Shown piece by piece: positions 15,228-16,456 of a stretch of 64,000 nt of DNA. The DNA is from Chromatiales bacterium (GTDB lineage: Bacteria > Pseudomonadota > Gammaproteobacteria > JAGRGH01). The stretch covers positions 1-64,000 of the forward strand of contig JAGRGH010000050.1 in NCBI GenBank assembly GCA_020445605.1. The letters are read 5' to 3'. Under the pieces are notes generated by a model, which searched no databases, was not told where the DNA came from, and worked only from the letters and a program-made list of their open reading frames with translations. Each line of letters opens with the position of its first letter. Position 1 is the stretch's first letter. The translations under genes were made by a program, and so were the position numbers.

Positions 15228-15393
15228 AACAGGTTGTTGAAAAAGGCCAATCCATGGCCTTTTCAACATCGCAACCGAAAAGCGCGGTTTTCGGTTGCTC
15301 ACGAAAATCAAACACTTGTGTGTTCGATTTTCGGGCGAGACGTCCCTGTCTCGCGTTAACAGGCCGTTGAAAAGACAATTTCAACAGCCTGTT
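15228..15393. repeat. 166-bp five-hairpin repeat, copy 1 (MITE-like)
   Basis: Outer ends AACAGGTTGTTGAAA and TTTCAACAGCCTGTT are near-perfect inverted repeats. Inside are successive stem-loops: GTTGAAAA.GGCC/GGCCTTTTCAAC, GCAACCGAAA/TTTTCGGTTGC, CGAAAATC/CGATTTTCG, GCGAGAC/GTCTCGC, and a terminal 15-bp hairpin (15358-15393). It is a direct copy of 16291-16456, of identical length. It lies between ppsR and the cupin gene and codes for nothing. Confidence 0.85.
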
Positions 15394-15440
15394 CAATCGC
15401 CCCTCAGCTACACTGGACCGCCCTTCGCTAGGACACCCCA

Positions 15441-15716
15441 ATGCAACCGATCCTCTACGAACGCCGCCCCGCCCCTGGCAAGCTCGATGTCATGGGCGTG
15501 GATGACTGGCCGATCTGGGAGAAGGAAGTCTCGGTGTTTCCGTGGACCTACGATGCACAGGAGACCTGCTACATCCTCAAGGGCCACGTGATCGTGACAC
15601 CGGATGGCGGCGAGCCGGTGGAACTCGGCGCCGGCGACCTCGTGACCTTCGCCAAAGGCCTGAGCTGTACCTGGGACATCCGCGAGCCGATAAAAAAGCA
15701 TTACAGCTTCGACTGA
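15441..15716 (+). CDS. Small cupin-domain protein
   Basis: A 91-residue single-domain cupin of the cupin_3/DUF861 type: 'WPIWEKEVSVFPWTYDAQET' followed by 'CYILKGHVIVTPDGGEPVEL' and 'GAGDLVTFAKGLSCTWDIRE'. The motifs lack the full His set of metal cupins (a Glu and Lys remain), as in other members of this group. Its function is unknown. The gene stands between the first 166-bp repeat (ends 48 bp upstream) and tRNA-Phe; the promoter may lie in or beside the repeat. Confidence 0.85.
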   Translation: MQPILYERRPAPGKLDVMGVDDWPIWEKEVSVFPWTYDAQETCYILKGHVIVTPDGGEPVELGAGDLVTFAKGLSCTWDIREPIKKHYSFD

Positions 15717-15797
15717 ACGCGGCTGAGACCACGCAGCGCGACGGGATTGCAGGCGCACGCGTGCATTGCGCAGCGGGTCTATTACGGGGAAGTAAGG

Positions 15798-15873
15798 TGG
15801 TGGCCAGGGGCGGAATCGAACCACCGACACGCGGATTTTCAGTCCGCTGCTCTACCAACTGAGCTACCTGGCC
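15798..15873 (-). tRNA. tRNA-Phe (GAA)
   Basis: A 76-nt cloverleaf on the minus strand: acceptor GGCCAGG/CCTGGCC, D arm GCTCAGTTGGTAGAGC, anticodon stem GCGGA/TCCGC with loop CTGAAAA (anticodon GAA), T arm with GGTTCGATTCC, discriminator A and encoded CCA. Confidence 0.95.
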
Positions 15874-16290
15874 GTATTCGGCAAAACTGCGTTGCTGTGC
15901 TTACATCCCTGTAGCGTCGCCCGGCCCGGCCATCCACGGCCGGTCGTTCGCACCTTCGAAAGCCATGTTAAATGGCTTTCGATGGCCTTAAGGCCACCGG
16001 CGCTCACCCAACTGGCAGGCTCGCCAAAAATGCAGGCCGGCTATTAGACCCGCGGGGCCCGGGAGCGTCAAGCGCACCCACGCCGGAACCGGTCTGAAGA
16101 CGCCCCGCCGTCGAGACCATGGCGATCCTTGAACGCCGGCAAGGCGCAGCGAGCACGGTGCAGCTGTCGCCGCAGGCGCAGGCCGCACATCCAGAGGGAA
16201 ACTCGACCCGGCCGCAAGGGACGCAGCTGAAACCGTATCCCGACTGAGTTGCCTGGCGGCTTGCCGGCACCCGGGATTCAGGCAGGTCCT
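15874..16290. other. Non-coding, hairpin-rich interval between tRNA-Phe and repeat copy 2
   Basis: About 417 bp without a credible gene. It contains a strong hairpin CGAAAGCCAT-GTTAA-ATGGCTTTCG (about 15957-15981), directly followed by the palindrome TGGCCTTAAGGCCA, and a GGCCGG-rich dyad near 15927-15950. These may be remains of another repetitive element. Open frames here are GC-driven shadows. Confidence 0.6.
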
Positions 16291-16456
16291 AGTAGGTCGT
16301 TGAAAAAGGCCCATCCATGGCCTTTTCAACGTCGCAACCGAAAAGCGTAGTTTTCGGTTGCTCACGAAAATCAAACACTTGCATGTTCGATTTTCGGGCG
16401 AGACGTCCGTGTCTCGCGATATCAGGCTGTCGAAATGAGAATTTCAACAGCCTGCT
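16291..16456. repeat. 166-bp five-hairpin repeat, copy 2 (MITE-like)
   Basis: Same length and order of stem-loops as copy 1. Most sequence differences fall in loops (for example CGCGG to CGTAG, and TGTGTG to TGCATG) or keep pairing, so structure is what is conserved. CTAG occurs at both junctions (16289-16292 and 16455-16458), a possible target duplication. The right end runs into the 3' end of the OsmC-like gene and provides its last codons. Confidence 0.85.

Follow-up and report, generated by a model that had tools for sequence, protein, structure and literature searches.

A widespread miniature transposable element family with a conserved five-hairpin core and putative CsrA-type RNA loops

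Two copies of a 162-bp repeat in Chromatiales DNA (contig JAGRGH010000050.1 of assembly GCA_020445605.1, positions 1 to 64,000, hereafter the window) belong to a real and widespread family of miniature inverted-repeat transposable elements (MITEs). The elements consist of five hairpins, and on the minus strand the loops of hairpins 4 and 1 have the form of CsrA-binding sites; this conserved loop pair is the unexpected part of the family. The best explanation overall, which we hold with somewhat better than even confidence, is a MITE mobilised by IS5-type transposition whose minus-strand RNA would carry CsrA-type loops and bind CsrA. The link to IS5, the spread over phyla, the replacement of terminal repeats on either side of a conserved core and the CsrA-type loops all go beyond the original prediction made from the window.

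Results

Borders, fold and neighbours of the two window copies

The original prediction described a 166-bp unit of five successive hairpins with shared terminal inverted repeats. The repeat is real: an ungapped alignment of 161 nt gives 91% identity between the two copies, at a spacing of 1063. The element proper is 162 bp long, however, since the two outermost bases at either end are part of a 4-bp target duplication. Copy 1 (15230..15391, plus strand) has the terminal repeats CAGGTTGTTGAAA and TTTCAACAGCCTG, which conform to the inverted repeats CAGGyTGTTGAAA found at the ends of the family. It is flanked on the left by TTAA (15226..15229), assigned by flank comparison and a permutation test on 44 copies, and on the right by TTCA (15392..15395), which has one mismatch to TTAA. 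The borders of copy 2 (16293..16454, plus strand) were set by flank comparison and fold. The CTAG tetramers at its ends (16289..16292 and 16455..16458), suspected in the original prediction to be a target duplication, are its left and right target duplications.

Both copies fold into five hairpins as RNA, with -87.9 kcal/mol for copy 1 (z -11.7) and -85.6 kcal/mol for copy 2 (z -10.3); in neither case was any of 200 dinucleotide shuffles as stable. Hairpin 1 of copy 1 (15236..15267) carries a minus-strand loop with AUGGA (ANGGA), as deduced from the fold and from loop variation in 44 copies. It is followed by hairpin 2 (15271..15298; fold and covariation between lineages) and hairpin 3 (15302..15333; fold). 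Hairpin 4 (15335..15354), delimited by covariation and loop columns, has the minus-strand hexaloop AGGGAC with a C-G closing pair (CANGGANG), and hairpin 5 (15360..15391; fold) pairs the right terminal repeat with a copy of the terminal repeat inside the element. In copy 2 the fold places hairpin 1 at 16299-16330 (minus-strand loop AUGGAU) and hairpin 4 at 16398-16417 (minus-strand loop ACGGAC), and thus the two copies differ at the N of the hairpin 4 loop.

As predicted, the copies bracket a cupin gene (PF05899) and a tRNA-Phe. Also nearby are a kinase/pyrophosphorylase gene and a gene with weak similarity to OsmC (24.7 bits, under the cut-off of 27.5). The latter (16444-16869, minus strand) crosses the CTAG duplication and has its TGA stop codon within the terminal repeat of copy 2; the same offset of -15 relative to the gene end was seen in three further copies in this genome. 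A sigma-70-like promoter was not found in the region of the window copies, and the one terminator-like site detected there is not part of the elements and does not exceed chance expectation.

The element is present in 85 places of its own genome

The genome of the window (3,364,788 bases in 63 contigs) contains at least 40 long matches to the element, each with at least 91% identity, among the 40 of 109 candidates that were scored. A covariance model built from 44 copies gave 116 matches. Manual removal of the weakest rows and of hits duplicated on the opposite strand left 85 distinct places; the element is thus not confined to the two copies of the window. Some copies are whole, some are truncated and some lack entire hairpins. 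Internal deletions taking out one or more entire hairpins were seen at L045, L052, L057, L058, L191 and L196.

Flanking tetramers were compared in 44 copies, with one more copy excluded due to its cut right end. The first base agrees in 39 of the 44 copies (19.8 expected by re-pairing), the fourth base likewise in 39 (24.0 expected), and the tetramers are identical in 16 (5.3 expected, P about 5e-5). That the duplications are direct repeats is evident from non-palindromic pairs, for example CTAA/CTAA and ATAA/ATAA. Where the right end of a locus had been set with the help of the duplication, duplication counts were not used as evidence. With a length of 162 bp, terminal inverted repeats, target duplications, no transposase gene and copies in 85 places, the element is almost certainly a MITE, that is, a non-autonomous DNA transposon.

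The stop codon of a gene lies inside the duplication in 32 of the 85 places, so that TAA or TAG is regenerated from the YTAR target. Placement relative to genes, based on gene calls from a home-made codon scorer, is convergent in 29, tandem in 39 and divergent in nine of the 77 places that could be classified (eight of the 85 remained unclassified). An orientation bias to genes was not found: 32 copies are on the plus and 31 on the minus strand within 30 nt of gene 3' ends, so that 3' UTRs show no preference for the minus strand.

IS5-family elements with like ends occur in other carriers

A domain search of the window's genome did not detect the transposase domain PF01609 (DDE_Tnp_1), and hence no active partner in the same genome. 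Searching the element loci first collected for terminal-repeat pairs 0.3-4 kb apart yielded nothing convincing, and no IS was recognised at free element ends in 18 genomes; IS elements surfaced with the PF01609 search. In other carriers, IS5-family IS elements with like terminal repeats and 4-bp YTAR duplications are present, YTAR being the target of IS5. One of them (L325) is 1281 bp long and has the ends CAGCCTGTTGAAAAA and TTTTTCAACAGGCTG between ctag on both sides; a second (L315, 1304 bp) has CAGGCTGTTGAAAAA at each end and the flanks ctaa/ctat. The carrier G141 contains three copies (L304, L316 and L329) of a 1158-bp IS with the ends GGAACTTCTGCAAAA/GGATGCTCTGAACAA and the duplications ctag/ctag, ctaa/ctaa and ttaa/ttaa, respectively.

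The protein of L304 matches the NCBIfam IS5 family model NF033581 with 351.9 bits (cut-off 140). The protein pieces of L325 (132.0 and 79.8 bits) and L315 (94.7 and 86.1 bits) score below this cut-off because the transposase genes are broken; the first L315 piece gave 95.9 with an IS1182 model, likewise below the cut-off of that model. Pfam identified DUF772 and DDE_Tnp_1 on the IS proteins. Of the two readings in the original prediction, that of a non-autonomous transposable element is borne out by the terminal inverted repeats, the 4-bp direct YTAR duplications and the IS5-family elements with like ends; the other, a structured RNA repeat, is taken up below. An IS5-family (DDE) transposase would act in trans, cutting the MITE of about 162 bp at its inverted repeats and duplicating the 4-bp YTAR target.

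Two further arrangements were observed among these loci. In G141 an IS5-type IS is immediately followed by a MITE of the GGAA type (L316, 1322-2637), each with CTAA flanks. At L212 (1501-1642, G040:C19) a MITE-like repeat has the same terminal repeat and ATAA duplications around an unrelated, CCCTC-rich hairpin interior.

The core is shared by distant lineages with different terminal repeats

A pattern for hairpin 1 matched at least 109 stretches from at least 30 genome projects among named genomes, with titles including Gammaproteobacteria, Chromatiales, Woeseiaceae, Lysobacterales, Nevskia, Sedimenticola, Magnetococcales, Deltaproteobacteria, Nitrospirae/Nitrospiria and others. The five-hairpin design occurs with different stems in Gammaproteobacteria, Magnetococcales, 'Deltaproteobacteria' and Nitrospirae. 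A model of 33 diverse elements, the E-values of which are rough, matched 70 of 369 genomes of the window's class at E up to 1e-5 (62 of 314 among the good ones). In a sample of the phylum the same model matched 48 of 398 genomes, 44 of them outside the window's class. One family of another class (f207) accounts for 36 of these 48 positive rows, and the element seems to be common there. Several deltaproteobacterial genomes contain elements with extra sequence in hairpin 2 or 3 (L073, L086, L158, L063 and L065), apparently nested insertions. One query each against plasmids, phages and viral contigs gave no match, and a phage or plasmid element was therefore rejected.

Three kinds of terminal repeats, CAG..GTTGAAAAA, GGAA..TCTGAATAA and GAGG.TGTCGCAAAA, share the core. 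Local alignment of cores gave a mean z against shuffles of 17.0 between the CAG and GGAA kinds (72 pairs) and of 15.0 within the CAG kind (66 pairs); z was near or below 0 for some single pairs, and thus not every pair is recognisably related. The identity of the left repeats is 0.44 between the CAG and GGAA kinds versus 0.91 within the CAG kind. Even without CsrA, it is unusual in a MITE that a non-coding core preserves its structure by compensatory change through exchanges of its terminal repeats.

Stems covary between lineages

For structural comparison 33 of 35 prepared references were aligned (L126, due to its length, and L023 were excluded); these full-length elements, one or few per genome, had been picked by eye after the sequences were seen. 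RNAalifold predicted 36 pairs, 19 of them with compensatory changes, chiefly in hairpins 2 and 4. The hairpin 4 stem was analyzed in a separate set of 20 rows, comprising 18 of 22 genome representatives of pattern hits plus VBWC and G000, which were added by hand; the VBWC copies had failed the automatic hairpin parse. Three rows identical to others and one differing only at an unpaired end base were left out. In this set 97.9% of the cells are paired and six of seven pairs are changed on both sides. Covariation is 0.755 compared to 0.238 after shuffling (0/500) and to 0.023-0.153 when the stem is slid. Since the loop was the selection criterion for the 20 rows, only the closing C-G pair and the stem count as free evidence there. 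Substitutions in further copies thus respect pairing, and the compensatory changes between lineages together with the conservation of the loops show that the structure is under selection, as the original prediction had proposed. Selection on the core is likely to act at the level of RNA.

The loop of hairpin 4 is fixed in the form of a CsrA hexaloop, with a further GGA loop in hairpin 1

None of the 33 elements had been recruited by a hairpin 4 pattern. On the minus strand their hairpin 4 reads C (32 elements), A (33), N, G (33), G (32), A (33), N, G (33), giving the consensus C-A-N-G-G-A-N-G (CANGGANG), and all four bases occur at each N. The corresponding plus-strand columns 137-144 are C (33/33), N, T (33), C (32), C (33), N, T (33) and G (32), with A 21, G 9, C 2 and T 1 in the first N column and C 21, A 7, T 3 and G 2 in the second. 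The flanking stem columns have 42-58% identity, and the loops of hairpins 2, 3 and 5 show no comparable fixation. An ANGGAN hexaloop is thus present in hairpin 4 of 32 of the 33 chosen elements. An automatic parse found the ANGGA hexaloop of hairpin 4 in 27 of 33 genomes, a value kept as computed with hairpins visible in G129, G139 and G143 missed, and in 58 of 67 parseable pattern hits (43 of 110 hits were unparseable). Two earlier parsers were replaced: one with a wider window, which found hairpin 4 in 12/33 and often chose hairpin 3, and the first one used on pattern hits (32/82), which often chose hairpin 5.

Within the own genome TCCNT is kept in 41 of 44 copies in hairpin 4 and in 42 of 44 in hairpin 1. 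The predicted concentration of base changes in loops is borne out in hairpins 2, 3 and 5, where 8.7, 16.5 and 16.3% of loop positions depart from the consensus compared to 2.1-4.2% in stems (44 copies). Hairpins 1 and 4 are an exception: in the core of their loops the N positions vary, but TCC and the T that follows N differ from the consensus in 0-2% of the copies.

The hairpin 1 loop of L059-L167 was not counted, because the recruiting pattern fixes that loop; evidence was taken from the own-genome copies, from elements recruited by their terminal repeats, from elements with other terminal repeats and from the parse of 33 genomes. In this automatic parse hairpin 1 has ANGGA in 11 of 33 genomes and any GGA loop in 24 of 33; in several lineages the loop is AGGAU or UGGAC, not ANGGA. 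Elements recruited by the terminal repeat alone have the same loops, with AUGGAU, AAGGAU, AGGGAU or AUGGAA in hairpin 1; degenerate or cut elements occur among them. A kissing interaction of hairpins 1 and 4 was rejected, since both loops have the same sequence and hence are not complementary.

According to the available text of PMC7652899, the hexaloop bound by RsmE is ANGGAN with a variable N, and the SELEX consensus is RUACARGGAUGU. The hairpin 4 consensus agrees with the CsrA hexaloop at all fixed and all free positions. The full SELEX 12-mer is present in three of the 20 rows of the stem set and in none of the 27 hairpin 4 sequences from the automatic parse of 33 genomes. The same text reports that SELEX sites mostly have at most 4 base pairs and that very stable structure is thought to be disadvantageous; the stems of the present element are longer.

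Discussion

A putative CsrA ligand within a transposon

The identity of the loop consensus with the CsrA hexaloop lets us name the CsrA family as probable partner of the loops with moderate confidence. The core would be an old structured module within the MITE, the minus strand of which is probably transcribed, as far as visible, by read-through from neighbouring genes. The minus-strand RNA would fold into the five hairpins, present the CsrA/RsmA-type GGA loops of hairpins 4 and 1 and bind a CsrA dimer like the paired GGA hairpins of CsrB/RsmZ-type RNAs. Such binding could have preserved the loops through the changes of stems and terminal repeats. For element or host, the gain might lie in a more stable read-through RNA or in a CsrA decoy scattered over the genome.

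One csrA gene is present in the window's genome. Compared by hand, csrA was found in 62 of 70 element-bearing genomes and in 251 of 299 without the element, which is no clear association; the eight carriers in which csrA was not found include G212 (98% complete) and G139 (95%). The lack of a clear association with csrA, of an orientation bias and of a detectable promoter was counted against a regulatory role for the host.

Part of these data would also suit an ordinary IS5-type MITE, in which the hairpins matter only as DNA, as cruciforms or single-stranded hairpins acting in transposition, target choice or replication, with the loop motif serving a DNA-binding factor. Ends and duplications are indeed of the DNA-transposon type, and the even orientation to genes and the lack of a detectable promoter fit as well. 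We consider this reading unlikely, since the loop motif is confined to one strand, has its free N exactly where the CsrA site has one and persists across the change of terminal repeats; moreover, we know of no DDE transposase that reads internal loops. Still less do many palindromic intergenic copies make the element a REP/RAYT or IS200/IS605-type palindrome moved by a Y1 transposase: with 4-bp direct target duplications, terminal inverted repeats and matching IS5-family elements this is extremely improbable. To our knowledge Y1 elements and REP/RAYT make no target duplications, and a REP/RAYT origin was rejected because duplications are present.

The strong conservation of structure is also expected of a structured RNA with another GGA- or UCC-binding partner, or of a paired transcription terminator or 3'-end stabiliser, to which the preference for gene 3' ends and the eight carriers with no csrA found would be congenial. 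The agreement of the consensus with the CsrA hexaloop at every fixed and free position speaks against another partner, and the position of the sole terminator-like site outside the elements against a terminator; we regard such an RNA as improbable, slightly more so than hairpins acting as DNA. Our preferred reading, a MITE with CsrA-type loops, leads to a broader proposal, for and against which we see about equal chances: a transposable-element lineage over several phyla may disperse paired putative CsrA/RsmA-binding hairpins as mobile decoy or docking RNA; it would have retained the binding loops through several changes of terminal repeats and, with these, of transposase. Should CsrA bind to the loops, a selfish element in many lineages has been placing binding sites of a global regulator at tens of intergenic positions in each genome. 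Transposons could then titrate or rewire a post-transcriptional network, and the long-kept fold of a non-coding transposon would have its reason.

Relation to known RNA families and mobile elements

In Rfam only tRNA reached the gathering score, leaving a feature found in 70 of 369 genomes of its class without an Rfam family. Membership in a known family, including TwoAYGGAY, TD-2 and the Csr-Rsm clan, was rejected because gathering scores were not reached. By bits the best non-tRNA match on the minus strand is TD-2 (25.3-28.5 bits, gathering 48.7); rsmX (19.3 versus 56) and, on the other strand, RsmV (13.7 versus 100) stayed far under threshold. These weak matches, with Bacillaceae-1 among them, are mixed with chance ones such as microRNA families. 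In the open-licence PMC literature we found no earlier description of the element, and its terminal-repeat strings were not found in print there. Nor did we find a relevant open-licence paper linking CsrA to miniature inverted-repeat or transposable elements; in the text available, the one match, on Rfam 12, is unrelated. The term 'CsrA' does not occur in the available text of a MITE review (PMC10969869), and the Thiomargarita MITEs, as far as described in the accessible part of PMC4853749, are other families.

The element resembles several known systems in part. With IS5-family IS elements and MITEs derived from them it shares terminal repeats and 4-bp YTAR duplications, which match those of the IS found here; it differs in its conserved five-hairpin core, its CsrA-type loops and its three kinds of terminal repeats. 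The Coxiella QMITE1/2 are likewise MITEs and give rise to small RNAs, but they are other families, and 'csra' is absent from the main text of PMC5896051 as far as available. TwoAYGGAY, TD-2 and reverse-complement Bacillaceae-1 RNAs also have two hairpins with AYGGAY/GGA loops, and CsrA binding has been predicted for TwoAYGGAY and Bacillaceae-1 (PMC4333381); in the available text of that paper they are not presented as transposons, and the sub-threshold scores do not allow membership. CsrB, RsmX, RsmY and RsmZ (clan CL00106 for rsmX and RsmV) share the paired hairpins with GGA loops, whereas the present element has no own promoter that we could see, two sites instead of many, and copies that are mobile and dispersed.
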